The notes beneath the pieces are model-generated. The model searched no databases and was not told the origin of the DNA. It saw only the letters and a program-made list of their open reading frames with translations. DNA of 64,000 bases. Source: Butyrivibrio proteoclasticus B316. Its GTDB lineage: Bacteria; Bacillota; Clostridia; Lachnospirales; Lachnospiraceae. Each line of letters starts with the position of its first letter. Within the stretch, counting starts at the first letter, position 1. This document shows positions 3,004 through 57,230 of this stretch, in pieces. Location: the NCBI RefSeq assembly GCF_000145035.1, contig NC_014390.1, positions 1 through 64,000 of the forward strand. Reading direction: 5' to 3'. The translations under genes were made by a program, and so were the position numbers.

Positions 3004-3107
3004 TTTACAAATATACTTTTTGGTATTATATTATTATTGTTGTTATTTAGTAGTGATTATTAATTAGGGCGAGTATTTTGTTTGATTGCGAAATACTCGC
3101 CCTTTTT
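3004..3107 (+). ncRNA. Putative leader/attenuator RNA, family member A (promoter plus ~68-nt RNA)
   Basis: TTTACA (3004-3009), a 17-bp spacer and TATATT (3027-3032) form a good sigma-A promoter. The RNA would start near 3039, carries the box TAGTAGT (3048-3054) and ends at a perfect 12-bp terminator stem (3067-3078 with 3091-3102, then five Ts). The same architecture recurs at 52,329, 54,541 and 57,078. It lies 50 nt ahead of the pilin-gene start, with no other promoter visible between, so read-through may control that gene. It could instead be a free small RNA. Confidence 0.6.
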
Positions 3108-3156
3108 ATGTGCTACGAAGCCTAAAAACAATCATTAAAAAGGAGGAGTTGTTAAG

Positions 3157-3521
3157 ATGACAAAGATGAAAGATTTGCAAAGAGCACAGCAGCAAAGGCA
3201 TCTGCTTTTGGTGCATTGGCGGTGGCAAGGGCTAATTACCTTGTTTACTGTGATGCATTCACAGATGCAAGCACAGCGGTAACAAACCTTCAGAGCAAGC
3301 TTGTTACTCTTGCAGAAGCACTGTTCCCTCTTGCAATCGTAATCTGCGGTATCGCAATGTTCTTTACCAGAGATCAGAAGAAGTTCGATGTTGAGAAGCA
3401 TATTCTTATCGGATGTTGCCTTGCATTCGCACTTATCGTTCTGGTTACAAAGGGACACATTGTATCAACAATCAAGTCTCTGTTCAACGGAGGAGCCGCT
3501 GCTCCAGCAGCAGGTGTTTAA
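3157..3521 (+). pseudogene. VirB2/TrbC-like conjugative pilin, apparently frameshifted near its start
   Basis: The coding body (3174-3521) encodes a small protein with two hydrophobic segments (LAEALFPLAIVICGIAMFF and HILIGCCLAFALIVLVTKG) separated by a short basic loop, the usual shape of a VirB2/TrbC-type pilin. It stands at the head of the secretion genes. The strong ribosome binding site AGGAGG and ATG at 3157 are in a different frame; that frame gives only a short, Trp/Gln-rich nonsense peptide. In the pilin frame the only start codon is a TTG at 3216 without a binding site. One extra A in the AAA run at 3169-3171 would join MTKMK directly to RFAKSTAAKASAFGA, a natural pilin leader. So there is either a real disabling deletion, a sequence error, or translational slippage. 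Read as written, the gene is broken. Confidence 0.65.
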
Positions 3522-3553
3522 TCACACGATGACTGTTGATAAAGAAAAAGATG

Positions 3554-3580
3554 AACTCCCCAAAACCTGGGGAGTTTTTT
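3554..3580 (+). terminator. Intrinsic terminator after the pilin gene
   Basis: A 9-bp perfect stem (AACTCCCCA 3554-3562 with TGGGGAGTT 3568-3576), 5-nt loop and six Ts. Confidence 0.9.
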
Positions 3581-3581
3581 C

Positions 3582-3636
3582 TTGCCACGCACTAAAACTT
3601 TGAATATAATATAACAAAAAATATATTTTTGTTATA
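3582..3636 (+). promoter_or_regulatory. Promoter of the VirB6-like operon with an inverted-repeat operator
   Basis: TTGCCA (3582-3587), 17-bp spacer, TATAAT (3605-3610). Immediately after the -10 is an 11-bp inverted repeat, TATAACAAAAA (3610-3620) and TTTTTGTTATA (3626-3636), around the expected start site: an operator position. The spacer also holds GCACTAAAA, the complement of TTTTAGTGC found ahead of the promoter at 10,499. Confidence 0.7.
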
Positions 3637-3672
3637 ACATAACTTTTAATAAAGAGTAAGGAGTAAGAGATA

Positions 3673-6600
3673 ATGCTGGAAAATTATCTGTATTCAATCC
3701 CCAAAAAGAAAAAGATCTTCTATGCATTCCTGATATCGTGGGCGTTTGTATCGCTTTTAACATACAGGGTTAATTGCGGTGGATTTTTTTCATGGATTGC
3801 AAGCACCGTAACGGACAATATCACTGATGAGATATTTACAGCCATGAATCAGTCGCTGGGAGAGGCTGTAGGTGCACTTATTGATTGGTTTTTCAATACG
3901 CTTTTGCAGCCGTTTGGCCCCCAGATAAAAACCTTTACTGACAGTACGAATTTTGTCAGTGTATCTCTTACGGACTTCCTTGATAGATTTTCGATATTTA
4001 CTGGAATGTTCCTTGCAACACTTTTTTTTGGCTTTGGAATCTGCGTTTATTTCCTAAACGGCAAGGTTATTGATTCAAAGGATACTCCAATAAGCCTTTT
4101 CTTTAGATACTGTGTTGCGATTGCCATATGCTATAAGCATAAGACAATCTATACAACTATCCTTACGATCATTGACGACTATTTTGGAACAATGGCATAT
4201 ACACTCACAAAAGATGCAATGAAGCAGGAAGGATTCCTCAATATCGTTGCAAAATCAGCAGATGATGAGTTGACGATTTTTGCTGTAAAGCAGGCCGTTA
4301 AATTTACATTTCCTGGAGTCGGTCTGATTATTGTTATTTTGCAGATCATTCTTATCTGGAAGCTTATAAAAGGATTTTTGAAATTATACTGCGAGATGGT
4401 ATCTAGGTACATTGTGACAATGGTTCTTTTGCTCTTATTTGCAGCTTTTGGTGGAACGATTGTTTCAAATAATACATCACCTATTTTTAAATCTTATTTA
4501 AGAACATTATTTAGTAGTTTCCTTGTAATGATATTTAACATGGTATGGTTCAAGGGGTGCTTCTTTGCAGTGCTTGGAGGAAACACATTTACTTTTATCC
4601 AGTATATTTTTGTTCTTGAACTATTAGCATTTGGCCTTAAGTTTGATGGAATGTTAAGAAGTATGGGTCTTGGAGTTGCTACCGGTGGATCTAGGATAGG
4701 AAGTGCGATAGCAGGTGCTGGAAGAAACCTTGCAAATTCACTTAGACAGGCAAATGCAGCAAGAAAAGGTGCCGGAAATCTTATGCAGGCTGAAGGTCTT
4801 AGAACTGGAAATAAGAAACTTTTCGATGCCGGAAAGATGCTGAGTGCTGGAGCATCAGATATTGCAAAGGGCGTTGGTCTAACAGATCCATCACACATGG
4901 CCGCTCAGCTTGGTGCTATGGGTAAAAAGATTAATGATGATTTTGTAACACCAGAACAGGCTGGAAAGATGCTTGCAAACGCACTTACTAATCCGCAGGA
5001 TAGGGATGCGCAGAATGCGGTTAGAGCATTGTCGAAGAATAAATTGAAGCAGGGTGCTCAGGCACTTGCAGATCAGGGCAATAGTGGAATCAAGGTTAAT
5101 AGTGCATCTATGAATCAGTTCAGGGGAGCAGACGGTAAGATGCATTCAGGAATTGCCATAAATGGTGAGAAGACTAAGATTGGCAAGGATGGAAAGGCTG
5201 TGTCTCAGGGAGTTAAGGGAACAATAAGTGATGCAGACGCATTTAGTTATTGTCAGAATTTTGGTAATGGAATGGGATTCCAGGCCAAGGGTGCTATGAA
5301 GAATGGAGAAAGATGCAATGCATCTGAAGCTGCTGAGCGTGCAGGACAAGACGTAGCCGATGCAATGAAAAAGGCGAGCGAAAATAATCCTAACTATAGT
5401 AATGACGATGTGATTCAAAAAGCTGGAACAGACATCAACAAAAATGATGTGTTCAATTGCTGTGATCCAAATGGAAAGCAGTATGGAACAGTAGTGGGGG
5501 GTGATTTTACACCAGCCAGTGATATAAATGCACCAATCCATGGTGATGATATGCGTCTTGCGGAAGCAAAAGAAGAAATTGGAGCAGCATCAGGAGCGGG
5601 AGCATCTAACGTATCTGACTTTAAGGCAACTGGATATACCGCAACAGCTACATCTCAGAATGTAGAGTCCTCACCTGTTTCAGTAGCTATGTCACCAAAT
5701 AGCGACGGTTCATCTACAGCAACACTCACAGGTGCAGATGGAAAGAGTGCCTCATTTAATGTACCAAATGGATCATCTTTAGAAGATGCTCTTTCTACAG
5801 ATAGTGGAAAGAACGCGGTAAGTAGTATAGGTTGTTCAGGTGGTTTGTCAGACATATCACCCAAATCCTATAGTGCATCAACGATAAGCCCTGATTCAAT
5901 GCATCCAATATCTGCAAGCGTTGTTTCTAATAGCGACGGCTCATCTACAGCGACATTAACGAATGGAAATGGTGCTAGCAGTTCATTTGACATTCCTAAA
6001 GGGTCATCTTTTGGAGAGGCTCTTGGCTCAGAAGAAGGACAGAGTGCTCTTAGTAGCGTATGTGGAGGCACTGGTGTAGCAGAGTTTACACCTACAGCAT
6101 ATAGTGCGACAGCGGGAGATTCAGACTCGGTGCAGTCTATTTCGGCTACTTTTGCTGATAATGGAGACGGTTCATATACAGGAACACTGGAAAGCGAAAG
6201 TGGAGGTAGCGTTCAGTTTAATGTTCCAAGTGGATTATCGTTTGAAGACGCTCTGGCATCTGATGAAATAATGGATGCGGCAAGCAGTATCAGTGGTGGT
6301 GCAGAAGTATCAGGATTTACACCAAGCGAATATGGAGCATGGGCAGTGGATGCTGATGCATCAGGAACACCAATTACGTTCAGCATGGGCACTGATGAGA
6401 ATGGAAACACAGTTGGAACATTCTCAAATGCAGATGGCGATAGCAGCAGTTTTTATGTTCCAAATGGTACTGGTTATGAGGATGCGATTTCATCAGAGGC
6501 AGGACAGGAGGCCGTAAGCAGTCTTGTTGATGGCGGCTATACAACCCCATTTACACCGAGTGAATATGAGGCAACAGGAACAGCAGTGGAAGAAGTTTCA

Positions 6601-7365
6601 TCGCCTATTACTGCTTCATTTACACCGGGAGAAGAAGCGGGTAGTTACGTAGGAACTGTCTCAAATGCATCGGGAGATAGCGTGGCATTTAATGTTCCAG
6701 AAGGAACAACCTTTGAAGATGCGCTGGCATCTGATGAAATAAAGGATGCTGCAAGTAGTCTGAGCGGTGGTGCCGATGTAGGAGACTTTACACCAAGCGA
6801 GTATACGGCAACTGCGAAAATATCAGATGATGAAAGTAGAGATTATGCCGTAAGTTTCAGCGGCAATAATGACGGAACATATACAGCTTCGATTAGAGAT
6901 TCTGATGGAAATGTATCCACATATGAATCCACTGATGAAACAATTGGTAACTCTATAAGGGATAGCCTTACAACATCAGAGAGATTTGATTCCGTATCAC
7001 CTTTTGAGCCTGTAGAAGGATCTGTTGGAGTATATCATGCAACAGGAACAAAGGATGGTGTTGAAACAGATATTACGGCCACTGACAGAGGTATATATGG
7101 TACTTCTACAACAAATGGTGAAGCAGGTAGCTATATGTACATCGGAAGTGATAGCTATGGAAATACTACTAGATACGATGTAAATGTAGGCGGAAGAGGA
7201 GGATCTTCTGGAAGGCAGTATGGATCAAATACTACTGTGGATGCAGAGGTCCTAATAGAGCAGGGCAATAACGAACGTCAAGATGTCGAGACGGCTGATA
7301 GTTATAACACGAACCCTGGTTTTGCTCAAAAAGGTAAGATAAAGACTCCCAAGAAGAGGCAGTGA
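3673..7365 (+). CDS. VirB6/TrbL-like polytopic conjugation protein with a five-fold repeat domain
   Basis: A 1230-aa protein. Residues about 15-330 hold a hydrophobic N-terminal segment and then some six membrane spans (for example FLATLFFGFGICVYFL and GLIIVILQIILIWKL), the expected core of the VirB6/TrbL inner channel component. A Gly/Ala-rich basic stretch follows (about 330-450). From about residue 649 come five tandem repeats of about 78 residues, each with F-T-P-S-x-Y near its start, an NADGDS-type centre and a V-P-x-G-x-x-x-E-D-A helix near its end, then two decayed repeats. The repeat region is acidic and Ser/Thr/Gly-rich, like an exposed beta-rich stalk. AAGGAG (3658-3663) precedes the ATG. 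It overlaps the next gene's start region and belongs to the operon 3673-10,424. Family by topology and neighbours; the repeat domain is unknown to me. Confidence 0.72.
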   Translation: MLENYLYSIPKKKKIFYAFLISWAFVSLLTYRVNCGGFFSWIASTVTDNITDEIFTAMNQSLGEAVGALIDWFFNTLLQPFGPQIKTFTDSTNFVSVSLTDFLDRFSIFTGMFLATLFFGFGICVYFLNGKVIDSKDTPISLFFRYCVAIAICYKHKTIYTTILTIIDDYFGTMAYTLTKDAMKQEGFLNIVAKSADDELTIFAVKQAVKFTFPGVGLIIVILQIILIWKLIKGFLKLYCEMVSRYIVTMVLLLLFAAFGGTIVSNNTSPIFKSYLRTLFSSFLVMIFNMVWFKGCFFAVLGGNTFTFIQYIFVLELLAFGLKFDGMLRSMGLGVATGGSRIGSAIAGAGRNLANSLRQANAARKGAGNLMQAEGLRTGNKKLFDAGKMLSAGASDIAKGVGLTDPSHMAAQLGAMGKKINDDFVTPEQAGKMLANALTNPQDRDAQNAVRALSKNKLKQGAQALADQGNSGIKVNSASMNQFRGADGKMHSGIAINGEKTKIGKDGKAVSQGVKGTISDADAFSYCQNFGNGMGFQAKGAMKNGERCNASEAAERAGQDVADAMKKASENNPNYSNDDVIQKAGTDINKNDVFNCCDPNGKQYGTVVGGDFTPASDINAPIHGDDMRLAEAKEEIGAASGAGASNVSDFKATGYTATATSQNVESSPVSVAMSPNSDGSSTATLTGADGKSASFNVPNGSSLEDALSTDSGKNAVSSIGCSGGLSDISPKSYSASTISPDSMHPISASVVSNSDGSSTATLTNGNGASSSFDIPKGSSFGEALGSEEGQSALSSVCGGTGVAEFTPTAYSATAGDSDSVQSISATFADNGDGSYTGTLESESGGSVQFNVPSGLSFEDALASDEIMDAASSISGGAEVSGFTPSEYGAWAVDADASGTPITFSMGTDENGNTVGTFSNADGDSSSFYVPNGTGYEDAISSEAGQEAVSSLVDGGYTTPFTPSEYEATGTAVEEVSSPITASFTPGEEAGSYVGTVSNASGDSVAFNVPEGTTFEDALASDEIKDAASSLSGGADVGDFTPSEYTATAKISDDESRDYAVSFSGNNDGTYTASIRDSDGNVSTYESTDETIGNSIRDSLTTSERFDSVSPFEPVEGSVGVYHATGTKDGVETDITATDRGIYGTSTTNGEAGSYMYIGSDSYGNTTRYDVNVGGRGGSSGRQYGSNTTVDAEVLIEQGNNERQDVETADSYNTNPGFAQKGKIKTPKKRQ
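5617..6783 (+). repeat. Five tandem ~234-bp coding repeats in the VirB6-like gene
   Basis: Repeats begin near 5617, 5851, 6082, 6313 and 6547, each about 77-79 codons. They are diverged at DNA level but keep the Y-x-A, D-G-S and V-P-x-G-x-x-x-E-D-A signatures in protein. Copies 3 and 5 share an almost identical end (EDALASDEI...DAASS), suggesting recent duplication or exchange. Confidence 0.85.
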
Positions 7366-7370
7366 TAATA

Positions 7371-9704
7371 ATGGCAGATGATTTTAGCATTCGCGATAAT
7401 ATGGAGCAAGATGCTAGGGACGTCAAAAATGATATCAAAACCTTAGCCGAGCCCATTGACAACAAAATACGACAAAAGGCCCAGGATGAGATTGGGAATC
7501 GCATTGCAAAGCATATTGCAAATGAAGGTGCAAAGCATGCAGCAGAGGCCGCCGCACAGACAGCAGGAACAGCTGGTGCGGCTGGCGTTGCCGGGGCTGA
7601 AGCTGCGGCAGAAGCTGGAGCTGGAACAACCGCTGCTGGAAGTGGCACAGCTTTAGCTACTACAACCGCTGCTGGAGGAACAGAAGTGGCTGCTGCAGGA
7701 GGCAGCGCCGCAGCGACTACAGGAGCTGCAGCGGCTGGCGGAGCTGTAGCAGAAGGAGCTGCTGCGGGCTCAGCAGGAGGACCTGCAGGAATTGTTGTAG
7801 GAGCGATTATTGGAGCAGCTATTGCACTTGCATCAGCTGTAAAAAAAGAGACAGATATTTCACTGGATAAAGATAATCCGGATGGTCCTAAGATCAATGC
7901 TTTTATTTTGATTCCGCTGATACTGATTTTTGCAATAACTACCCTTTGCGGAACGCTTATTTCCAAGGGAGTCGCATCTCCATTATCTGTGGGGCAGGAA
8001 ACAGAGTTTCAGAATTCTAAGGTTGACGGAGAGAACATGTCTGATGCGGGAAATCGCTACAAGGATGGCATGACACTTAAGGATTTCCATGACAATCAGC
8101 CTCTTTATAATGCCATATGGGATTATACTTTTGGCAAAGATGGTTCCGGAAAAACTGATGGTCTAAGGCAAACTCTTTCAAAAGCCCTTAGAGACCACTG
8201 CGCTAATATTGTAAAGCAGCTTGAAAAGTACACGGGATCTATGAATGGCCATCCATATAACAGTGAAAGGTCCTTGGACTCGTTTTATAAGAACAGATAT
8301 CCATATGACCTAGCTACAAGTACGTTTAAACCAAGAATTGGAGATGTACTTATTCCAGGCCAGACCTTTTATGACACGACATATTCAACATGGAATCCGA
8401 CCTACGATGACGTTAACTACGCTGAGATATTTGCTGTTTTCAGCATGACAGATACTGTTGCTAACGGTGCGCATTATGGATTTGACTGGGGAGATGTAAA
8501 CTATGAGGATTTCATGACATATCTCCAGAAGGAAGAGTGCTACAAGTACATGTATGAGCTGGGACTTATGTGGGTTCCGGTATATGTAGGCGAAAAAGAA
8601 GTATTTAATGAAAATGACCCTACTACAGATGATGATGATACGTACGACACCATAACTTTTGAGCGTGAGCCATATGAGTTTGATTCTCCGGAAGGCTGCA
8701 GAAGTGCACCCGATACAATAGAGTGGGACGGAGTAGTATGCAACTGGGAATATTATTATGTAAAAGTCACAGTTAAGCCATTTGGCTTAAGAGAGCTTTT
8801 TGCGATGGCTTTTAATACAACAGATCCTACGTGGGCATCCAATCTTAAGCATGTAAACTTTGACCAGCATAATAACCTTTATATGCTTGGATATTCCGAG
8901 CGTGTAACAAGGCTATATGCGCGTGATGTTAAAGTTTCATACGTAAATCCAGCTGGAGTTACTGTATCAGTTGCAGATGCACTAGGACCAGCGTTTAATA
9001 AGACGCGAAGTTACTTAAGCCCTGTATTCTATGATGTTAATCATGACTCATGGCTTATAGAACGTGGCTGGCAGGGTAAAGGAAGAAGCCCATGGTGCTA
9101 CATTGATAAAACATATAATGATAAGTTTGAAGTTATAGATTGGGACGAAGATCCAGGCGGAGCCGACCCTCCGGGAGAAGATTTAGTACCTCCAGAAGGT
9201 GGAAAAATCCTTGATATGTATGAGTATATAAATCAGGGTGATTATCCTGATACAAAAAGAGGTGCTTCAAAGAAGACAGTTGCGGGGTCTGGGTGTTATG
9301 ACTGTTCGATTGATATGATAATCATGTACTACGAGAGGTATCATATCCCTATAACAGAAATCAGTAAATATGTAGATGCTGGCGGAGATCTTCACTCCGA
9401 TGAGGTTCTTGCAGTATATGGCCTTAAAAAGAGCGGCAATATAACCACAAATGTTGTACAAGGCGTTATAGATGAGATCAATAACGACAGGCCTGTAATA
9501 CTTCACATTGAAGGTTATTGGTATTCCAAAGAGGATGGAAGAACGTTACATGGAACGTCTAACGGACATTTCCTTGTGGGAATTGGTTATGATGAAACGG
9601 GTCTTTACGTTTGGGATCCAGGAAGACGTGCCAATTATCATATCATTTATGAAGACTGGAACCATGTTAATTCACTGTATTACAGAACTGTAACTCATAT
9701 GTAG
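7371..9704 (+). CDS. Membrane-anchored C39-like cysteine peptidase of the conjugation operon
   Basis: A 777-aa protein. Residues about 40-145 are an Ala/Gly-rich low-complexity stretch; one membrane span follows (AFILIPLILIFAITTLCG, near 180), so the remainder should be outside the cell. The last 140 residues resemble the C39-like family 2 domain: a candidate nucleophile Cys642 (with Cys645) in GSGCYDCS, His733 in SNGHFLVG and Asp749 in VWDPG. In this place other systems carry a VirB1/PrgK-type wall hydrolase, so local cutting of peptidoglycan or of a cross-bridge peptide is the likely role. I start at ATG 7371 (AGAAGAGG ahead of it), not the GTG at 7362 that overlaps the preceding stop. The middle 400 residues (many Tyr, Trp, Asp) match nothing I know. 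Confidence 0.68.
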   Translation: MADDFSIRDNMEQDARDVKNDIKTLAEPIDNKIRQKAQDEIGNRIAKHIANEGAKHAAEAAAQTAGTAGAAGVAGAEAAAEAGAGTTAAGSGTALATTTAAGGTEVAAAGGSAAATTGAAAAGGAVAEGAAAGSAGGPAGIVVGAIIGAAIALASAVKKETDISLDKDNPDGPKINAFILIPLILIFAITTLCGTLISKGVASPLSVGQETEFQNSKVDGENMSDAGNRYKDGMTLKDFHDNQPLYNAIWDYTFGKDGSGKTDGLRQTLSKALRDHCANIVKQLEKYTGSMNGHPYNSERSLDSFYKNRYPYDLATSTFKPRIGDVLIPGQTFYDTTYSTWNPTYDDVNYAEIFAVFSMTDTVANGAHYGFDWGDVNYEDFMTYLQKEECYKYMYELGLMWVPVYVGEKEVFNENDPTTDDDDTYDTITFEREPYEFDSPEGCRSAPDTIEWDGVVCNWEYYYVKVTVKPFGLRELFAMAFNTTDPTWASNLKHVNFDQHNNLYMLGYSERVTRLYARDVKVSYVNPAGVTVSVADALGPAFNKTRSYLSPVFYDVNHDSWLIERGWQGKGRSPWCYIDKTYNDKFEVIDWDEDPGGADPPGEDLVPPEGGKILDMYEYINQGDYPDTKRGASKKTVAGSGCYDCSIDMIIMYYERYHIPITEISKYVDAGGDLHSDEVLAVYGLKKSGNITTNVVQGVIDEINNDRPVILHIEGYWYSKEDGRTLHGTSNGHFLVGIGYDETGLYVWDPGRRANYHIIYEDWNHVNSLYYRTVTHM

Positions 9705-9719
9705 GAGAAAAAATAAACT

Positions 9720-10424
9720 ATGAAAACAAAGACCAAGTTAATACTAGGTGGCGTGGCGCTTGTTACGTTTGCATCCCTAATGACAGCGCTTATATTTTAT
9801 AAGAACAGTACAGAGGCGGTTTCAGATGAGGAGGAAGAAATAACTGGTTTCTATGTTCCTGAAAGAGAGCATTCTTCCGAAAGCAGTACAAGCAGCACAG
9901 CAGTGCCAATGTTCGCTGATAAGAGGAATTTCACGGAAGAGGAACTGGCAAAGGATGATGAGTTTGAACCTGAGGGGGCTGATCACTACGAAGTTGATGA
10001 GGAACAATCAAATATCCACGTCATCGTAAATAACTTTGAAGAGATTTACACACATTATGATGACTGGAAGATATGTAATGAGCTTCCGTATTACCTTCAT
10101 ACATACTTCAACTTATGCACAGGAAATCTCGATGAAAGATATGTTGTTACACTCACGGAAGGGTCCTGCGTATGTGAAGAATACTATTCAGTTATCACTT
10201 GGGAAGCAACCGTTGATAAGTATCCGGGAATGACTATTTACCTTGAGTATGACAAACAGGAAAGAGAGTTTGGAATAAAATCAGACCTTGGAGACTATTC
10301 ATTGCAGGCTCTTAAGGAAAAGGGCTCAAAGAGTGACTTCTGGATAGAATATGATCCGAACCTTGATATGGAAGATGATGGACAGGCAGGCGATGCTACA
10401 GCAGTAGATCCGAACGAACACTAA
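9720..10424 (+). CDS. Membrane-anchored acidic protein of the conjugation operon, unknown function
   Basis: A 234-aa protein with one N-terminal membrane anchor (LILGGVALVTFASLMTALIFY, about residues 7-27), a long Ser/Glu-rich linker, and a globular domain from about residue 95 with three Cys residues. Very acidic overall. AGGAGA lies ahead of the ATG, 15 nt after the C39-like gene, and a terminator follows, so it is the last gene of the 3673-10,424 operon. Position and topology would suit a VirB8/TcpC-like assembly factor, but no sequence signature was seen, so I do not assign it. Confidence 0.7.
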   Translation: MKTKTKLILGGVALVTFASLMTALIFYKNSTEAVSDEEEEITGFYVPEREHSSESSTSSTAVPMFADKRNFTEEELAKDDEFEPEGADHYEVDEEQSNIHVIVNNFEEIYTHYDDWKICNELPYYLHTYFNLCTGNLDERYVVTLTEGSCVCEEYYSVITWEATVDKYPGMTIYLEYDKQEREFGIKSDLGDYSLQALKEKGSKSDFWIEYDPNLDMEDDGQAGDATAVDPNEH

Positions 10425-10430
10425 TATGAG

Positions 10431-10469
10431 GCTCTTACCAGCAAAAATGTTGTTGGTAAGGGCTTTTTT
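10431..10469 (+). terminator. Intrinsic terminator ending the VirB6-like operon
   Basis: A 10-bp stem (10,431-10,440 with 10,454-10,463, one T-G pair), 13-nt loop and six Ts. The T tract merges with TTTTTAGTGCAAAAG, a member of the TTTTAG-NNN-AAA motif group. Confidence 0.85.
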
Positions 10470-10489
10470 AGTGCAAAAGTCTTGAAAAA

Positions 10490-10527
10490 TTACCGCCTTT
10501 GGGATATTATATATAACGTTATAATAT
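10490..10527 (+). promoter_or_regulatory. Promoter of prgI-virB4 with an iteron-like box
   Basis: AATTACCGCCTTTG (10,488-10,501) is identical over 14 bases to the inverted copy of the iteron at 16,093-16,106. It overlaps the -35 TTGGGA (10,499-10,504). At 17 bp lies TAATAT (10,522-10,527); a TATAAT is also present at 15-bp spacing. The end of the spacer (ACGTTA) and the following ATTTAAAAGTAAT match the promoter at 33,772. The protein that binds the iterons may therefore also control this operon. Confidence 0.6.
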
Positions 10528-10559
10528 ATTTAAAAGTAATAATGCAAGGAGGGAGAAAC

Positions 10560-39745: not shown

Positions 39746-39746
39746 G

Positions 39747-47825: not shown

Positions 47826-47857
47826 ATATCTAAATGTAATAGTACAAGGAGAATATC

Positions 47858-49519: not shown

Positions 49520-49530
49520 GGAGGCGGAAG

Positions 49531-51483: not shown

Positions 51484-51497
51484 ACAAAAAAGGATAT

Positions 51498-51521
51498 GGG
51501 CTTTGGATGATACCAAAGCCC
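51498..51521 (+). promoter_or_regulatory. Stem-loop between operon genes
   Basis: GGGCTTTGG (51,498-51,506) pairs perfectly with CCAAAGCCC (51,513-51,521). No T tract, so it probably protects or processes mRNA and lets transcription continue. Confidence 0.65.
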
Positions 51522-51544
51522 GATTCATGGAAAGGAACTTAACA

Positions 51545-51790
51545 ATGGTTGTCAGTGGGATTGAAGTATATCCAGTAGATGTTACTAGTCTTGAGGACAA
51601 ATCACCGGTATATATAGAGTTTGATGGAAATTCAGCGTTTACAAGCCAGTGGGGGATTGTAGACCAGAAATTACATCGTACAATCCATAAGGATTTTATC
51701 ATCACGTTCAATGACAGATGCAGATATTATGGCCTGTATAAGGACAGGAGTGAGAAAAAGGAAAAGAAGGGCGTTATAGTGAAGTTTTGA
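51545..51790 (+). CDS. Small hypothetical protein
   Basis: An 81-aa soluble protein (MVVSGIEVYPVDVTSLEDKS...) with a basic C-terminal end. AAAGGA lies ahead of ATG 51,545; the longer frame beginning at 51,470 overlaps the previous gene and the hairpin, so I reject that start. Not recognised. Confidence 0.5.
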   Translation: MVVSGIEVYPVDVTSLEDKSPVYIEFDGNSAFTSQWGIVDQKLHRTIHKDFIITFNDRCRYYGLYKDRSEKKEKKGVIVKF

Positions 51791-51815
51791 TTCTATATAT
51801 GTAAAGGGGTTACAT

Positions 51816-51986
51816 ATGGAAATGACTGATGGAACTAACAAAGTATCCGTTACCAAGGGAAAAGAAAACTTTAGTATAGGTGAAACAATTAAGGGACTGA
51901 CACCAACATTTATCGTCATCATGGGGATTACGCTTATATTGGCGCTGGTACTAAGGTATGTCGGATATAGATATGGCGTGTTATAA
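51816..51986 (+). CDS. 56-residue single-span membrane protein
   Basis: The frame has GGGG about 8 nt before ATG 51,816. The product has a polar N-terminal half (MEMTDGTNKVSVTKGKEN) and one hydrophobic span (FIVIMGITLILALVLRYVG). It follows the previous small gene by 25 nt and is probably in the same operon. The function is unknown. Confidence 0.5.
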   Translation: MEMTDGTNKVSVTKGKENFSIGETIKGLTPTFIVIMGITLILALVLRYVGYRYGVL

Positions 51987-52032
51987 GATAGGAACTGCTT
52001 GCGTTTTTTCGGAAGAAAGGTGAGGGGAAGAT

Positions 52033-52302
52033 ATGAAAGACGTTTTTGCTGATCTTAAAGAAGACATTCATAAGGAAAGAGTTAAGTTATGTATCTCAAA
52101 GATAGTCTGCGGCATTTTTGTAGCTGTTTTTCCATGGATTTTTAGTCTGTTCATGCCATCTACAGCGGTTTATGACAGGTTCTTTTCTATAATGTTTCTC
52201 TTAGTGAGGATAGTATTTTTGATAATTGGCCTCCTATTTGTTTGCGGGGGTGTATCAGCCTTGAAGCAAGAAAAGAGAAACTACCATGAAAAAAGGCTAT
52301 AG
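52033..52302 (+). CDS. Small two-span membrane protein
   Basis: An 89-aa protein with an N-terminal charged helix and two hydrophobic spans (ISKIVCGIFVAVFPWIFSLF and IMFLLVRIVFLIIGLLFVCG), ending in a basic tail. GGGGAAG lies ahead. Not recognised. Confidence 0.6.
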   Translation: MKDVFADLKEDIHKERVKLCISKIVCGIFVAVFPWIFSLFMPSTAVYDRFFSIMFLLVRIVFLIIGLLFVCGGVSALKQEKRNYHEKRL

Positions 52303-52328
52303 AAGCTAAAAGAAAATGAAGGTTTTTA

Positions 52329-52438
52329 TTGACTCTTACTTTTCGAAATACTATAATTAAATATGTTATAAGTAGTTAAGTTAATAATTGTGGCAAAAAT
52401 CGATCCGTTAGGCCTGTACAAGGCTTAGCGGATTTTTT
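52329..52438 (+). ncRNA. Putative leader/attenuator RNA, family member B (ahead of ssb)
   Basis: TTGACT (52,329-52,334), 17-bp spacer, TATAAT (52,352-52,357). The RNA, from about 52,365, has the box AAGTAGT (52,370-52,376) and a 13-bp terminator (52,403-52,415 with 52,421-52,433, two G-T pairs, six Ts). No second promoter is visible before ssb 77 nt further, so ssb may depend on read-through. Confidence 0.6.
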
Positions 52439-52514
52439 ATTCCAGTTATTAGCATCCTCTACTTATAGAAACTGTTCACAAAGCACAATAAAACCCAATA
52501 AGGAGGAAAAAACA

Positions 52515-52934
52515 ATGATGAACAAATGTCTATTTACTGGACGCCTGACGAAAGATCCTGAGGTGAGATACACTCAGGGAGAGAGGACAAGCGCTGTTGC
52601 AAGATTTTCACTTGCAATCGACAAGCAGGACAAAGAGCACACAACAGGATATATCAATGTTGTAGCTTTTGGAAAGCTTGGAGAGTTTGTCGAAAAGTAT
52701 CTGAAAAAGGGAATCAAGATTGAGCTTGAATCCCATGTTACACCAGGATCTTATGAAAAGGATGGCAGAAAAGTCTATACATATGACTTTGTAGCTGACA
52801 AGATTGATTTTGCGGAGAATAAGAACGCATCATCAGTTACTTCTGGTAAAACACATTCCGAGGCAGGTTCTTCGGATGATGACGGTTTTATGGATATTCC
52901 GGATGGAATTGAAGAAGAGCTGCCATTTCACTAA
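52515..52934 (+). CDS. ssb: Single-stranded DNA-binding protein
   Basis: A 139-aa SSB with the OB-fold start MMNKCLFTGRLTKDPEVRYTQ, the core FSLAIDKQDKEHTTGYINVVAFGKLGEFVEKYLKKGIKIELES, and the acidic C-terminal tip ending EEELPFH in place of the usual DDDIPF. It coats single-stranded plasmid DNA during replication and conjugative transfer. AAGGAGG (52,501-52,507) precedes the two adjacent ATGs. It is controlled by leader B and closed by a terminator. Confidence 0.95.
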   Translation: MMNKCLFTGRLTKDPEVRYTQGERTSAVARFSLAIDKQDKEHTTGYINVVAFGKLGEFVEKYLKKGIKIELESHVTPGSYEKDGRKVYTYDFVADKIDFAENKNASSVTSGKTHSEAGSSDDDGFMDIPDGIEEELPFH

Positions 52935-52960
52935 ACAGCAACTGCATACATGAGCAGATA

Positions 52961-52988
52961 AAGGGAGAGTTTAGGCTTTCCCTTTTTT
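52961..52988 (+). terminator. Intrinsic terminator after ssb
   Basis: AAGGGAGAG (52,961-52,969) pairs with CTTTCCCTT (52,976-52,984, one G-T pair), 6-nt loop, six Ts, then ATGCCCATTT, a string that also follows the terminator at 54,643. Confidence 0.85.
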
Positions 52989-53018
52989 ATGCCCATTTAG
53001 CAGAAAGGAGAGAAAGTC

Positions 53019-53119
53019 ATGGAAATAATTGAATCAGCTGCTGCGATACTGTTCGTGTTTTTGGTTTGCCAAAACTGATTCCGATTGTCGGAAAAATCAT
53101 GAACAAAAGAAATGACTGA
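53019..53119 (+). pseudogene. Small hydrophobic peptide gene with a homopolymer frameshift
   Basis: AAAGGAG precedes ATG 53,019 and the frame MEIIESAAAILFVF runs to a stop after 19 codons. One more T in the TTTTT run (53,058-53,062) would give MEIIESAAAILFVFFGLPKL followed by IPIVGKIMNKRND, a sensible 33-aa membrane peptide. Either a real shift or a sequence error. Confidence 0.45.
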
Positions 53120-53142
53120 ATAAGATCTTTTGATTTAAGTTC

Positions 53143-53323
53143 ATGGTAGCTGCAAAGCAGAAGGTAAAGAAAAAGGACTCTTCTTCTAAGCCAAAAGACT
53201 AAAAAAAAGAATCCCAATTCTTCACCAAAGAATCTCGATCTTGTTAAGACGATTGCTACCTTAGTAACGATGGTAAAAGATGTGATAAACATCGCCATTG
53301 CTATTAAGAGCTTTCTTCCTTAA
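53143..53323 (+). pseudogene. Small Lys-rich protein gene with a frameshift
   Basis: ATG 53,143 opens MVAAKQKVKKKDSSSKPKD then TAA at 53,200. Dropping that T would join to KKKNPNSSPKNLDLVKTIAT and a hydrophobic helix (LVTMVKDVINIAIAIKSFLP) ending at 53,323. The break lies at an eight-A run. No good ribosome binding site is seen. Confidence 0.35.
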
Positions 53324-53329
53324 AAGATC

Positions 53330-53368
53330 AGAGTTACGGGGGAGTCCAACCCACTCCCTTGTAACTCT
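53330..53368 (+). promoter_or_regulatory. Very stable hairpin
   Basis: AGAGTTAC-GG-GGGAGT (53,330-53,345) pairs with ACTCCC-TT-GTAACTCT (53,353-53,368), 16 bp with two G-T pairs and a 7-nt loop. The T tract is poor (CTATTCTACC). Probably a terminator of reduced strength or an mRNA end. Confidence 0.6.
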
Positions 53369-53376
53369 ATTCTACC

Positions 53377-53508
53377 ATGATAAAAGAAACTATGTCAAAG
53401 AAAAGCGCAGTATTACTGCTGGTTTTGAGCATTATTGACCTGGGATTTGTTATTGGAAAAATCCTGGCAGATAAAAAGGAGAAAGAAAATGAACAAGATG
53501 ATAATTAA
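53377..53508 (+). CDS. 43-residue single-span membrane peptide
   Basis: The frame from ATG 53,377 (or 53,392) gives MIKETMSKKSAVLLLVLSII then DLGFVIGKILADKKEKEN: one hydrophobic span and a basic/acidic tail. Its end overlaps the first 20 nt of the next gene, whose AAAAAGGAG lies within it, so the two are coupled. Confidence 0.45.
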   Translation: MIKETMSKKSAVLLLVLSIIDLGFVIGKILADKKEKENEQDDN

Positions 53509-54406
53509 CAACTGGGTAAAGAATCTTTTAGCTCCGGCAATGAAGGCAAATGGATGCATGGCAGAAATAAGAACACCGGAAGATGTTATTGAAAACATGT
53601 ACTATCTGTCAAAGGAAGATGGAAGAGGATCCAGATATATTCCGCTTCAGTACAAGAGGATGATAGAGAAGATCATATGCGGTCTTTTTAATTCAGGCTT
53701 TGTGTATAGGGACAAAGAGGACGTCTATTTTGACAAGATTGGCGATACGCTTGTGTGCTGCGCCAATGTATTCTTTGTTTCCTACGCAGATGATGGTACA
53801 AAGAAAGTTTTAGGACACGGCTTCCATTGTCTTTCACTTGATGAGGTTATGCCTGGCATCTTCATGAGCGAGGCTGAACGAGCTTCAAAATGGAAGGCAA
53901 CAGTAATAGGTGCTGCTAAATCCAGAGCTTTGTATGATGCAGGAATAGGACTTGAATTCTATGGTGATATATATGCTCCGGAAGAAAACCTGGATGAGCA
54001 TGAAACAGAAGCTGTAGATGAAAAAGGTAAGAGCCGAAGTAAGGAAGGCGTTAAAGAAAAGGTATATTCCCAGATGGGCAATCCGATCCCTCAGCCAAAG
54101 AAAAAAGCAGCAGTTAAGGATTCTTCTAAAGAAGAGGCTCCTTCAGTAAAGGCAGAAAAAGAGGCTGATCGCGTGGTGCCACCTATGCAGAATGAAGCTC
54201 AAGATGCAGGGATGTCTATTGAGATAGCCAAAGCTTTAAAGGCAGATTGCGGGAATTATCAGGGGATGACGCTTGGAGATATATATGAAACAGCGCCTAA
54301 GAATCTGGCATTTCTTATCAGATACTCTAAGGATGAGCAGGTGAAATGTGCTGCAAAATCCATTATCTATGCTGATCCAGAGCTAAAAGAAAAGCTTGCA
54401 GTTTAA
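53489..54406 (+). CDS. Putative DNA recombination/annealing protein
   Basis: A 305-aa protein. The N-terminal ~180 residues (with DTLVCCANVFFVSYADDG and SEAERASKWKATVIGAAKSRAL) read like the Rad52/Sak-type annealing proteins of phages and plasmids, in which a similar 'ETxAxGRAL' helix occurs. A Lys/Glu linker follows, and the C-terminus has GNYQGMTLGDIYETAPKNLAFLI, a motif found in several replication/recombination proteins of mobile elements. Start ATG 53,489 with AAAAGGAG ahead. Near ssb, consistent with DNA repair or handling after transfer. Family call is tentative. Confidence 0.6.
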   Translation: MNKMIINNWVKNLLAPAMKANGCMAEIRTPEDVIENMYYLSKEDGRGSRYIPLQYKRMIEKIICGLFNSGFVYRDKEDVYFDKIGDTLVCCANVFFVSYADDGTKKVLGHGFHCLSLDEVMPGIFMSEAERASKWKATVIGAAKSRALYDAGIGLEFYGDIYAPEENLDEHETEAVDEKGKSRSKEGVKEKVYSQMGNPIPQPKKKAAVKDSSKEEAPSVKAEKEADRVVPPMQNEAQDAGMSIEIAKALKADCGNYQGMTLGDIYETAPKNLAFLIRYSKDEQVKCAAKSIIYADPELKEKLAV

Positions 54407-54415
54407 AGCAATAAG

Positions 54416-54445
54416 AGGGTCGAGTCACATGACTTGGCCCTTTTA
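54416..54445 (+). terminator. Intrinsic terminator
   Basis: AGGGTCGAGTCA (54,416-54,427) pairs with TGACTTGGCCCT (54,430-54,441) with two G-T pairs, then TTTT. Confidence 0.85.
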
Positions 54446-54540
54446 TTAATATCAAATCAACAAGTAAAGACAACTATGATAGTCTAATGGAACCGAGTAA
54501 GAAAAAATACAGATAGATATATAGTATACGCTAAACTTAG

Positions 54541-54643
54541 TTTACATGGGCATTTCTTCATAGTATAATTCTTCATGTTTAGTAGTTTTAGTTTAAAATT
54601 GTTGCTAGTAGTGTCGTTTCATTTTTGTGAAGCGGCTTTTTTT
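54541..54643 (+). ncRNA. Putative leader/attenuator RNA, family member C
   Basis: TTTACA (54,541-54,546), 17-bp spacer, TATAAT (54,564-54,569). The RNA, from about 54,576, carries TAGTAGT twice (54,580-54,586 and 54,606-54,612) and ends in a 9-bp terminator (GTCGTTTCA / TGAAGCGGC, then seven Ts). It lies 83 nt ahead of the membrane-protein gene at 54,726. The remaining gap 54,446-54,540 is AT-rich and holds nothing clear. Confidence 0.6.
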
Positions 54644-54725
54644 ATGCCCATTTTTAAGCAACGGACTTACTAAATCAAAAGACATACTTTAAATCAAAAT
54701 CCGTAAAATAAGGAGGTACTTCAAA

Positions 54726-55334
54726 ATGAAGGCAAAAATCACTACAAAACTTATGATGTTATCAGCAAAGGTTTCTGGTTTTATTAATCAGAACGAAAGA
54801 AGGAGAATCTCAATAGGCCTTGCATTGTCTGGCGGATCATTTCTGTATACATTTTTCTTACTTGATATTACAGAAAACAATGACCCTACAGCATTCGCTT
54901 TAAGCGTTTGGGCAGGAATTCTCTTTATCATTGGATTGGTTATAATTACTGGCAGTGCAGCTTCAATCACAAAGTTCTTTGAGAGATTGAATGTAGAGCT
55001 TTTAGAGCTTATGTCTTTTTTCGCTGCAGGCATTTTAATTGGTAATTTTTATACCGTTCCATACAGTAACTGCAGTGGTATTATACAGGTTGCCATGTTT
55101 GGATGTGCAATCTACGTAGTATTTTACTTAGCAAGATGCAGCATGCTTATTTTCCAGTTACTTAAAAAATTAGTAACACTGGTAATAGACAAGCTTAAGG
55201 ACGCCGGCGATAAGATCAAGTCTAAGACTGATCTTTATGATAAAATCCTTAAAAATCTTGTTAGTATCGCAGGTACACTATTTGTTATTTTTAACTTCCT
55301 TGAGCCTATGATCAGAAAGATCCTTGGTTCATAA
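54726..55334 (+). CDS. Membrane protein with amphipathic tail
   Basis: A 202-aa protein with three to five spans (LALSGGSFLYTFFLL, AGILFIIGLVIITGS, LMSFFAAGILIGNFY, VAMFGCAIYVVFYLA) and a C-terminal charged helix ending in one more hydrophobic stretch. AGGAGG lies ahead of the ATG. No family recognised. Expression is probably governed by leader C. Confidence 0.65.
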   Translation: MKAKITTKLMMLSAKVSGFINQNERRRISIGLALSGGSFLYTFFLLDITENNDPTAFALSVWAGILFIIGLVIITGSAASITKFFERLNVELLELMSFFAAGILIGNFYTVPYSNCSGIIQVAMFGCAIYVVFYLARCSMLIFQLLKKLVTLVIDKLKDAGDKIKSKTDLYDKILKNLVSIAGTLFVIFNFLEPMIRKILGS

Positions 55335-55342
55335 GCAAAATT

Positions 55343-55374
55343 AGCCTGTTCACTTCGGTGGATAGGCTCTTTTT
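55343..55374 (+). terminator. Intrinsic terminator with UUCG loop
   Basis: An 11-bp stem (55,343-55,353 with 55,358-55,368, two G-T pairs) capped by TTCG, then CTCTTTTT. Confidence 0.9.
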
Positions 55375-55405
55375 ATATCACTAGATAATACAACTAAATA
55401 ATGCA

Positions 55406-55447
55406 ACAGCTCTTCCCGGAGCGTTTATCACCTGAGGGGAGAGCTGT
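55406..55447 (+). promoter_or_regulatory. Structured leader stem-loop
   Basis: ACAGCTCTTCCC (55,406-55,417) pairs with GGGGAGAGCTGT (55,436-55,447) with one G-T pair and an 18-nt loop. No T tract; it lies 38 nt ahead of the gene at 55,486 and may regulate it or protect its mRNA. Confidence 0.6.
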
Positions 55448-55485
55448 AATGGCTTTCTCCTCTTGATTAGAAAGGAAAAAAGAGG

Positions 55486-55980
55486 ATGAAAAAAGTTTAC
55501 AATTGTTATGGAAAAGATATTACGGGGATAAAGGTAAAGCTTCAGAGTGCAACATTCGGCGGATATAACGCTGCAGGAGAACTTGTTGTTAACTGGCCTC
55601 AGGTCTCAGCTATGGTTGATGACTGTGGGTTTGACAAGACTCATAAGGAGCCAAACGGTCAGTACCTTATGGACGTAGAACTTCCAAAAGGAACTATTGT
55701 TGTAAGGTATGGTTCAAACAAGGGATATTTTACAGCTCCATTGGGAACAGCATTTGAACTCTTGGGCTTACCCTATGAAAAAAGCACATGTGAATACCAT
55801 CAGTACAAAGTTGTAGCTGACGGAATCCATGTAAAATGCGTAGTAAAAAGAGGAAAGGTAAGGGCTGCGTTCAACAGCTGTGGTGGTGCTATTCAGTATT
55901 ATCATGAGCAGAGCATCGCTAATGAACTACTGCAGCACAAGCTGGAGGAGGACTTTTCATGGCTTACGAAAGAGAAATGA
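55486..55980 (+). CDS. Hypothetical protein
   Basis: A 164-aa soluble protein with beta-rich character (TFGGYNAAGELVVNWPQVS; VVRYGSNKGYFTAPLGTAFELLGLPYEKSTCEYHQYKVVADGI is split across two strands groups). It recalls glycohydrolase-toxin or TNT-like folds only loosely, so I leave it unassigned. Its last 22 nt overlap the next gene. Confidence 0.6.
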   Translation: MKKVYNCYGKDITGIKVKLQSATFGGYNAAGELVVNWPQVSAMVDDCGFDKTHKEPNGQYLMDVELPKGTIVVRYGSNKGYFTAPLGTAFELLGLPYEKSTCEYHQYKVVADGIHVKCVVKRGKVRAAFNSCGGAIQYYHEQSIANELLQHKLEEDFSWLTKEK

Positions 55981-56180
55981 AAATGTTAATCCGACTGCTT
56001 CAGTTTCGCTTTAGAAAACCTTTTTCAATAAACGGATACTCCGAAGGAGTACTCTGTACTGAGAAGGATGGATCAAAGTGGGATGTATACTACGGTGAAC
56101 GTAATCACAAGATGGACCTTCATAGGTTCGACAGTCAGTGTGATGCTTACCAGTATCTCATTACGCAATTAACTATCTGA
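55959..56180 (+). CDS. Small protein, paralogue of the gene at 56,350
   Basis: A 73-aa protein with GGAGGAGG (55,944-55,951) ahead of ATG 55,959. The pattern INGYSEGVLCTEKDGSKWDVYYGERNHK is shared with the product at 56,350 (IGGYSDSAICLEKTEFGYEVYFAERNKK). This G-Y-S...C-x-E-K...V-Y-[FY]-x-E-R-N motif is typical of small single-domain proteins that occur near toxin or accessory genes, possibly immunity proteins; function unproven. Confidence 0.6.
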   Translation: MAYEREMKMLIRLLQFRFRKPFSINGYSEGVLCTEKDGSKWDVYYGERNHKMDLHRFDSQCDAYQYLITQLTI

Positions 56181-56202
56181 TATCTTTAACAAAAGGCAAA
56201 AC

Positions 56203-56235
56203 GGACCATGCACTACAAAAGCATGGTCCATTTTT
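56203..56235 (+). terminator. Intrinsic terminator
   Basis: GGACCATGC (56,203-56,211) pairs perfectly with GCATGGTCC (56,221-56,229), then ATTTTT. Confidence 0.9.
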
Positions 56236-56349
56236 ATGTCTAGAAAGCCTTTCTTAAGCACATTTTTTATTGCATTTGGAGGCCTGAATCATTACACTAG
56301 ACTTATAAGAACTATTAACTGTTGGTAGATTATTATATGGAGGCAGGAT

Positions 56350-56586
56350 ATGGATAAGGTCGCAGTTAGAAACATAAATGATCTACAGGATGCTTTAAAG
56401 AACGTCCCTGAGAGGTCTTATCATATTGGTGGCTACTCAGACAGCGCTATATGCCTTGAAAAGACTGAGTTTGGCTATGAGGTTTATTTCGCTGAGAGAA
56501 ATAAGAAGTGGGATCAAAAGCTCCACAAAACAGAGCAGGAAGCATGTGAAGATATGCTTGGCCGACTTGAAGAGTATATGGATTGA
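56350..56586 (+). CDS. Small protein, paralogue of the gene at 55,959
   Basis: A 78-aa acidic protein of the same small family. It has its own promoter candidate TTGCAT (about 56,269), 17-bp spacer, TACACT, and GGAGGCAGG just before ATG 56,350. The two copies have diverged strongly but keep G-Y-S, C-x-E-K and E-R-N. Confidence 0.6.
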   Translation: MDKVAVRNINDLQDALKNVPERSYHIGGYSDSAICLEKTEFGYEVYFAERNKKWDQKLHKTEQEACEDMLGRLEEYMD

Positions 56587-56603
56587 ATTACTGAGATTCC
56601 AGG

Positions 56604-56629
56604 GCCTTGGATTTTATCCAGGGCTTTTT
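56604..56629 (+). terminator. Intrinsic terminator
   Basis: GCCTTGGA (56,604-56,611) pairs with TCCAGGGC (56,617-56,624, one T-G pair), then five Ts. Nearly the same stem is used at 57,152-57,175. Confidence 0.85.
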
Positions 56630-56714
56630 CTTTGGCTATTTTCAAATGATTTTTTGAAACGAATCCATCTTAAAGATTGTTTATTATATGCATACGGAGG
56701 AGATGAAATAATTT

Positions 56715-57071
56715 ATGACAGCAAAAAAACATACACCATTAAAGATTCTACTCATCATTCAGATAGTACTAACAGTATTGTTTTTCCTATATCTTAGTAT
56801 TCATATGAAAGTATGGGATGGATATCAGCTTGCGGTTGAGGAGACAAGTTTTATATATGAAATAAGTAAGATTCTATCAGGGATAGTGTTTATACCGGCG
56901 ATCCTTACACTTCTTGGATTCTTGCCGACCATGATAGCAGTAATTGTTTCACTCATCCTTTTCTTTAAAAACAGATCTGACAAGGGGCTTCTTATATATC
57001 CGCTCCTTAGCTTTGTTACCGAGTTTTTACTTGTGTTTTCCAGCATGAGTGTACTTGGAAGCATGTACTAG
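56715..57071 (+). CDS. Three-span membrane protein
   Basis: A 118-aa hydrophobic protein with three spans (ILLIIQIVLTVLFFLYLSI; GIVFIPAILTLLGFLPTMIAVIVSLILFF as one long or two short spans; LLSFVTEFLLVFSSMSVL). GGAGGAG lies unusually far (about 14 nt) from ATG 56,715. Not recognised. Confidence 0.55.
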   Translation: MTAKKHTPLKILLIIQIVLTVLFFLYLSIHMKVWDGYQLAVEETSFIYEISKILSGIVFIPAILTLLGFLPTMIAVIVSLILFFKNRSDKGLLIYPLLSFVTEFLLVFSSMSVLGSMY

Positions 57072-57077
57072 AGCATA

Positions 57078-57180
57078 TTTACAAGAACATTAAATAATGT
57101 TATATTCTAAATGTTAGTAGTAGTTTTAATTTATCATATTATTGTTTGTAGAGCCTTGGGATTTTTCCCAGGGCTTTTAT
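57078..57180 (+). ncRNA. Putative leader/attenuator RNA, family member D
   Basis: TTTACA (57,078-57,083), 17-bp spacer, TATATT (57,101-57,106). The RNA, from about 57,113, has TAGTAGTAGT (57,115-57,124) and the terminator AGCCTTGGG (57,152-57,160) / CCCAGGGCT (57,167-57,175) with TTTTATT. A second terminator follows at 57,191. It stands ahead of the small ORF at 57,270. Confidence 0.6.
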
Positions 57181-57190
57181 TATTTTAAGC

Positions 57191-57230
57191 AGAGTCATGG
57201 CTCATTCTATAAAGCCCTGGCTCTTTTTTT
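57191..57230 (+). terminator. Second tandem terminator ahead of 57,270
   Basis: AGAGTCATGGCT (57,191-57,202) pairs with AGCCCTGGCTCT (57,213-57,224) with one mismatch, then seven Ts. With leader D it puts two terminators in a row before the gene, a layout suited to antitermination. Confidence 0.8.

Follow-up and report, generated by a model that had tools for sequence, protein, structure and literature searches.

Plasmid attenuators, antiterminators and antisense RNAs are known mostly singly. The window analyzed here, the first 64,000 bp (G000:C4:1-64000) of the 186,325-bp plasmid C4 of Butyrivibrio proteoclasticus B316 (genome of 4,404,886 bp in four contigs), holds four leaders of one type, each with a promoter, conserved boxes and an intrinsic terminator ahead of a gene. 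What is said below of published systems follows excerpts of the respective papers. Rli51 of Listeria monocytogenes is a 5′ untranslated region (5′-UTR) attenuator that also acts as a trans small RNA (sRNA); the excerpt describes release of a short RNA by premature termination, action in trans and binding of the leader by another sRNA, all of which have a likeness here, but Rli51 serves one gene compared to nine or more here, is chromosomal and has a predicted terminator/antiterminator switch that was not seen here (PMC11394854). conAn of pLS20, composed of the protein ConAn1 and the RNA conAn2, likewise belongs to a Gram-positive conjugative element with terminators within transfer operons and is linked to a promoter, but it is one element heading one long operon, whereas here a short element stands before many short operons (PMC8955417). 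canT of Tn916 is also an RNA element ahead of terminators and transfer genes, but according to the excerpt it needs hundreds of nucleotides (a 452-nt region, with active and inactive fragments of 232 to 400 nt), whereas about 35 nt precede the first terminator here (PMC11658703). With lambda Q and N (named in PMC11658703, characterized here from general knowledge) the leaders share a short promoter-proximal transcript that ends at a terminator, which a dedicated factor passes in lambda; no Q- or N-like protein was identified here, and pairing between the two conserved boxes is not accompanied by covariation. LoaP, a NusG paralogue, provides leader-dependent terminator read-through in Bacillota (PMC12691694), but the genome of B316 has no second NusG-family protein. 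In sum, the leaders appear to resemble an attenuator doubling as an sRNA, as in Rli51, and may recall conAn and canT in purpose. We assign them to no known system because there is no NusG paralogue, no supported antiterminator fold and no Rfam family; they are set apart from conAn by its description, ConAn1 relatives not having been searched. Rfam gave no match in the window at the gathering score (52200-57400 and the sRNA locus described below yielded nothing beyond sub-threshold matches), and none of the titles and abstract starts listed in literature searches described this leader family.

With moderate confidence, we view the leaders as one plasmid-borne family of promoter-proximal attenuators that would be wired together by RNA, through attenuation in cis and pairing in trans. 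The family, its layout and the complementarities can be read from the DNA itself. A leader runs in the order promoter, box A, box B, terminator T1, often a second terminator T2, ribosome binding site (RBS) and gene. The −35 and −10 elements are separated by 17 nt in 29/29 members, with a scanner that tolerated 16 to 18 nt at a penalty; 6 to 7 nt after the −10 follows GTT, taken as +1, and the RNA begins with GUU (a second scanner required GTT, and the nine C4 members were found without this rule). Box A is TAGTAGT or a variant such as TTGTAGT (UAGUAGU-like in RNA), no more than about 8 nt away from GTT. Box B is ATTRTTGC/T (AUURUUGC-like in RNA), often extended (TTGTAG), and lies upstream of T1. 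The D element, GCAACCTTAAATCA, occurs whole or in part between the last terminator and the RBS in many leaders. The features in the window are as follows, with promoters read from the sequence and with a position weight matrix (PWM):

3004 to 3032, + strand: U1 promoter, TTTACA, 17 nt, TATATT
3039 to 3103, + strand: U1 leader, +1 G at 3039, box A 3048-3054, box B-like AATTAGGGC 3062-3070, T1 3066-3103, fold z-score -8.0
3216 to 3521, + strand: TrbC-like pilin frame after U1, Pfam match below cut-off
52329 to 52357, + strand: U2 promoter, TTGACT, 17 nt, TATAAT
52365 to 52433, + strand: U2 leader, +1 G at 52365, box A AAGTAGT 52370-52376, box B AATTGTGGC 52386-52394, T1 52403-52433; before ssb (52515-52934)
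52480 to 52488, + strand: U2 AAAGCACAA, 9 nt complementary to the 5′ region of the C4 sRNA
54541 to 54569, + strand: U3 promoter, TTTACA, 17 nt, TATAAT
54577 to 54636, + strand: U3 leader, +1 G at 54577, box A 54580-54586, box B AATTGTTGC 54597-54605, T1 54613-54636; before the gene of a 202-amino-acid (aa) protein (54726-55334)
54689 to 54696, + strand: U3 TTAAATCA, partial D element, run of complementarity to the sRNA
57078 to 57106, + strand: U4 promoter, TTTACA, 17 nt, TATATT
57113 to 57177, + strand: U4 leader, +1 G at 57113, box A 57118-57124, box B TATTATTGT 57137-57145, T1 57150-57177
57191 to 57224, + strand: U4 T2, second terminator, fold z-score -2.8
57236 to 57249, + strand: U4 D element GCAACCTTAAATCA, immediately before the RBS; complementarity to the 5′ end of the sRNA

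The preliminary description had reported these four units with a −35 of TTTACA or TTGACT, 17 nt, a −10 of TATATT or TATAAT, TAGTAGT (AAGTAGT in the ssb unit), an AT-rich stretch, a terminator, an RBS and a gene, and all of these are in place. The shared 5′ segment is likewise real and has gained a second shared box (ATTRTTGC) before T1. One terminator per unit was described and is found, but the unit at 57078 has a further one (57191-57224).

A profile search had been suggested to reveal more copies, and it did: nine lie on C4, and in all there are 29 on ten contigs, belonging to 6 of 79 same-genus genomes and one metagenome contig. The C4 leaders, with the starts of their −35 elements, all directly precede an RBS-bearing gene:

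3004, + strand: before the pilin
52329, + strand: before ssb
54541, + strand: before the 202-aa protein gene
57078, + strand: before a small operon
73052, + strand: before an 80-aa gene
79849, + strand: before a DUF5688 gene
166706, + strand: before a 102-aa gene, then an 82-aa gene
168288, + strand: before a primase-like gene
170253, + strand: before a RecE-like nuclease gene, a RecD-like helicase gene being next

The others are distributed over the genomes G015 (ten on two contigs), G077, G072, G068 (lone copies) and G054 (two each), and two are on a 3,270-bp contig of a metagenome-assembled genome (MAG; JAILNT010000288) that bears the label Treponema. C4 is syntenic with both G015 contigs, and leaders are retained ahead of six genes with orthologs there, encoding the pilin, the 102-aa and 80-aa proteins, the primase-like and RecE-like proteins and the DUF5688 protein. 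In G054:C11, the boxes of the ssb leader are almost those of U2, down to the unusual letters. TAGTAGT by itself is unremarkable (12 in the window versus 7.65 expected; at least 12 in 10/100 shuffles); it is the ordered combination of elements that is special. A PWM scan of C4 gave exactly nine sites scoring at least 20 (28.9 to 41.9), all on the + strand, whereas 30 dinucleotide shuffles of C4 in 2-kb blocks gave 7 such sites, none of at least 26 and with a maximum of 24.5. The first 28 members score 26.1 to 42.2; this evidence is partly circular because the PWMs were trained on the members themselves, and the recoveries by nhmmer on C4 and by the model in other genomes, given below, are less so. 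The 29th member postdates the member statistics, which cover 28 or 27 leaders.

The members were collected in the 79 genomes with a strict pattern, a structure-free model of 16 sequences and a PWM rescan of contigs. On C4, a combined promoter and terminator scan yielded the fifth unit (79849), and nhmmer with five members gave three more below the inclusion line (E 0.037 to 0.51) and a fourth at E 19, these four being accepted by eye. In its own genome the model alone sets six of the nine members apart from noise, with the best match outside C4 at E 0.56, in a search that scored 150 of 2911 first-look candidates; none of five model matches on the chromosome contig C1 had the leader layout, the other replicons being covered by the model search only. 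In other genomes the model gave 6 new loci, and 16 of 22 rows of the genus search were accepted (G054:C11:530-570 among them) and 6 rejected. Two of 30 PWM rows, G068C21:6185 (score 26.5, terminator score 20) and G068C23:195417 (22.9), were dropped by eye for lack of the 17-nt spacer and for a different setting. Since the strict pattern matched 5/79 genomes and its reversed control 20/79, genus members were accepted by inspection and not by count. At family level the pattern matched 7/397 genomes, one being B316 itself, versus 11/397 for the reversed control; beyond the leader-bearing contigs, pattern matches stay at the control rate. Among the best 22 of 230 scored matches from genome_contigs (91 matching stretches), viral_contigs (at least 120 matching stretches) and loci of the 397 genomes, the layout occurred outside C4 only in Butyrivibrio AC2005 (G015:C11) and the Treponema-labelled contig. 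Two stricter scans of viral contigs gave no leader, and PLSDB gave no DNA match to the sRNA locus and only distant primase and VirB4 relatives.

The first line of evidence for pairing in trans concerns box A. Outside the window, U9 and the sRNA flank the 82-aa gene (C4 167147-167395), whose leader holds AAAACTACTAAAC, the exact reverse complement of GTTTAGTAGTTTT, the first 13 nt of U3. This 13-mer partner occurs once on C4 outside the leaders, its 12-mers occur nowhere else there, and G015 retains 12/13 of it within an otherwise altered intergenic stretch. Among 44 ortholog pairs, the 82-aa leader is the single box A outlier. Over their first 28 nt, the nine leaders on C4 pair with this site at -13.66 kcal versus -10.5 ± 0.74 once the site is shuffled (equalled in 0/300; 1/300 with shuffled leaders). 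The ten G015 leaders reach -10.28 on their own site (0/300 shuffled sites, 2/300 shuffled leaders) and are weaker crosswise on the C4 site (7/300 and 11/300). The preliminary description had offered a multi-copy sRNA family as an alternative. Spelled out, the RNAs ending at T1 would be the product, a constant fraction of transcripts would leak past T1, and the downstream genes would ride on the leak. This idea keeps some support, since the shared 5′ end with variable hairpins suits it and box A, with its exact partner, looks as a shared seed would; on the other hand, all C4 copies stand directly ahead of an RBS-bearing gene, and a free sRNA would hardly need a second terminator ahead of a gene. 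As a full account of the leaders we consider it improbable. No partner RNA turned up for box B. A box B/C partner at gene 57854, an outlier on both plasmids (-15.5 and -15.2), was rejected, as it lies within the conserved end of the upstream coding gene and is rich in G-U.

The second line of evidence for the attenuator family wired by RNA is a putative sRNA with its D elements, a layer that lies outside the window and was invisible to the preliminary description:

C4 167428 to 167518: putative 90-nt sRNA just behind the 82-aa gene, promoter TTGACA, 17 nt, TAATAT, then GATTTAAGGTTGTGC, hairpin loop UUGUUUUUCC, terminator
G015:C11 77321 to 77411: sister-plasmid sRNA, same parts, stem altered

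Fold z-scores are -4.8 (C4) and -3.4 (G015), and the reverse complement of the D element opens the sRNA. In U4 the D element pairs over 12 nt with the C4 sRNA and, counting the preceding A, over 15 nt with the G015 sRNA. Against 25 late leader segments (two shorter than 21 nt were left out), the first 20 nt of the sRNA gave -14.35 versus -9.2 ± 0.43 kcal for C4 and -13.9 versus -7.8 ± 0.44 for G015 (100 dinucleotide shuffles). Watson-Crick runs to either sRNA of at least 7 nt occur in 20/27 leaders versus 36/504 other genes, of at least 8 nt in 14 versus 11 and of at least 9 nt in 9 versus 2. An inner gene of the U8 operon (173403; 83364 in G015) likewise bears a D element. At the DUF5688 site each sRNA favors its own plasmid (C4 -23.2 versus -18.3; G015 -29.0 versus -20.4), the other sites being mixed. 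Furthermore, the loop UUGUUUUUCC fits the stretch from Shine-Dalgarno (SD) sequence to start codon better in leader genes (-7.1, n = 21, versus -5.2, n = 287; p 7e-5). As expected of an antisense sRNA acting in trans, it has a putative seed that could pair with a number of leader mRNAs close to their RBS.

As to attenuation in cis, T1 scores at least 19 in 28/29 members, the exception being G015C11:99897 with a bulged stem (score 10), and T2 is present in 18/28 leaders examined. Between T1 and RBS, the best promoter-like score in 27 curated leaders was 8.5 (C4 maximum 4.8); shuffles of this stretch average up to 5.8, and the leader promoters themselves score 4.3 to 17.4 (G068C21:488, a gene start without RBS, was left out). 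In U9 the RBS ends just 27 nt after T1, and in the G015 ortholog just 20 nt after it, the RBS itself being counted in. Because no strong promoter was found between T1 and RBS, the leader genes seem to need read-through of T1. The earlier statement that no other promoter is present is thus borne out for this stretch, whole operons lying beyond its scope. A DNA operator, with a repressor bound to box A over the start site and terminators merely shielding the genes from upstream transcription, appears very improbable: the conserved block does adjoin the promoter and the plasmid does encode helix-turn-helix (HTH) proteins (e.g., C4 177668-178384), but box A is non-palindromic, its distance to +1 and to box B varies, and a T1 downstream of the promoter would block the promoter's own gene.

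Processive antitermination is a more serious alternative, although we still regard it as unlikely. A plasmid or host protein would recognize both boxes as the RNA emerges (or in the DNA, as lambda Q does), T1 and T2 would be ignored, and the RNA-RNA matches would be secondary. The two unrelated consecutive terminators in 18/28 leaders and a conserved box B with no RNA partner found would be explained, and conjugative elements employ such systems, as excerpts on conAn (PMC8955417) and canT (PMC11658703) describe. Against it, the sole NusG-family match (PF02357) in the genome is chromosomal (C1), no candidate protein is linked to all leader-bearing contigs, and box A is better accounted for by its exact antisense partner. 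From the four units, an attenuation or antitermination regulon with a common factor had been predicted; the regulon part retains support, with T1 between promoter and gene in 28/29 members, whereas the common factor was not found.

Other modes of control in cis were tried and set aside. A hairpin of box A with box B gave -3.13 kcal for own versus -3.26 for swapped pairs, without covariation (own pairs do beat shuffled box A, -2.35). When the 5′ part of each leader was paired with the late segment of that leader, the energy was -10.4 versus -9.5 kcal for other pairs, with scattered ranks; taken against all late segments, the nine C4 5′ parts reach -10.18 versus -9.89 ± 0.1, below all 10 shuffles, a small shift beside that of the sRNA. 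A leader peptide from AUGUUUAGUAGU was dismissed by eye, as the frames differ among leaders and no RBS precedes them. Compensatory change in T1/T2 across nine related leaders is weak (1/21 pairs). As a separate observation, in GAGCC-type leaders (57150-57224 and relatives, alignment A8), the T1 3′ arm CCAGGGCT complements, by eye, the T2 3′ arm AGCCCTGG.

In our model of attenuators wired by RNA, each promoter would make a short RNA starting with GUU and carrying box A and box B, which would mostly end at T1, or at T2 where present, and the downstream gene would be expressed only upon read-through by RNA polymerase. The T1-stopped RNAs probably act in trans as small RNAs on the 82-aa gene leader, because their shared box A seed fits it. 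Read-through mRNAs would mostly bear a D element beside the RBS that pairs with the 90-nt sRNA, and the sRNA most likely represses their translation because its loop also matches the SD-to-start stretch. The net effect would be a two-step control, of termination and then of translation, of genes for transfer and DNA entry (pilin, ssb, primase-like, RecE-like nuclease).

Several observations weigh against this model. Of 79 genomes searched, 2 yielded the sRNA and the 82-aa gene, and four other genomes carry leaders (two of these, G054 and G072, are 88% and 72% complete). The D run is shorter than 7 nt or absent in 7/27 leaders, including U1, U8 and U9, it is just 6 nt in the ssb leader of G054, and in U5, U6 and U9 box A matches its partner weakly. 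A mid-sRNA control slightly beats its shuffles too (-8.0 versus -7.1 ± 0.4 kcal). By raw energy, the sRNA window ranks 11th and the anti-box A window third of 61,315 C4 windows. Since the promoter of U7 itself scores just 4.3, a weak promoter after T1 is possible in places. Finally, as noted above, no read-through factor was found.

The 82-aa protein might have a part in this. It has no Pfam match above cut-off (Tudor_5, E 0.0044, is below it). An AlphaFold model from six sequences has five strands and a mean predicted local distance difference test (pLDDT) score of 73.6 (core about 90); a Foldseek search against the PDB gave Hfq of M. jannaschii (E 2.3e-3, probability 1.00) as top match and Tudor of PHF19 at E 6.8e-3, none being below 1e-3. 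The model thus resembles a small Sm/Tudor-like barrel of either kind; no Hfq is detectable by Pfam in the B316 genome. Two-domain relatives lie within about 2 kb of a DUF5688-type leader on four contigs, divergent from or near it:

L004 13468 to 14013, - strand: two-domain barrel relative
L301 2798 to 3406, - strand: two-domain barrel relative
L303 203 to 787, - strand: two-domain barrel relative
L098 492 to 1088, - strand: two-domain barrel relative

It is imaginable, if rather improbable, that the leaders form a plasmid-wide RNA switch in which this Sm-like protein is the read-through factor or its chaperone and the stopped RNAs shut it off via box A. Failed read-through would keep the system off and successful read-through would lift the brake, giving a whole set of transfer and entry genes two stable states; the adjacent sRNA would lock these genes at the level of translation as well, and since a fresh recipient cell would not contain it, they would be expressed on entry.

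As to the setting, proteins encoded in the window match Rep3, actin-like/ParM, TraG/VirB4-type and VirD4-type families. The gene behind U1 had been called a pilin; a TrbC-like domain does follow (24.2 bits versus a Pfam cut-off of 27.9), but at 3216-3521 it lies in a different frame than the RBS-proximal ATG (3157), whose own frame is interrupted within 3157-3521, by a frameshift or a sequencing error. At 55486-55980, a 164-aa protein matches the TNT (tuberculosis necrotizing toxin-type) domain, and a 73-aa open reading frame (55959-56180) overlapping its gene could encode a partner. The first short frame past the U4 leader (57270-57344) may be a remnant because it resembles the beginning of a protein family (about 733 aa) whose genes stand behind this leader type in G015, G077 and G072. 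In G068, a genome without the 82-aa gene or sRNA, one lone leader (L280 near 488, G068:C21) runs without an RBS into a serine-hydrolase-like frame (labelled by eye) and the other (L291 near 7576, G068:C23) precedes a short frame like the start of the 733-aa family; both are possible relics. Iteron-like clusters of TTTACA-containing repeats lie at L009 18600-19000 (C4 about 182,600-183,000) and L098 2020-2110. On a Vescimonas fastidiosa plasmid (NZ_AP023417.1; L309 7370-13392), genes for a lambda-exonuclease, a RecD-like helicase and a distant primase-like relative are clustered and followed by an AcrIIA9-family gene; this cluster may point to a leading region at U7-U8.

In sum, one leader type stands ahead of at least nine genes or operons on one plasmid, and the majority of these mRNAs have a further element fitting a dedicated sRNA. 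If our reading holds, rumen Butyrivibrio would coordinate plasmid transfer and entry through an RNA regulon built of short parts, and, if confirmed, this would be a new mode of joint gene switching by a plasmid.

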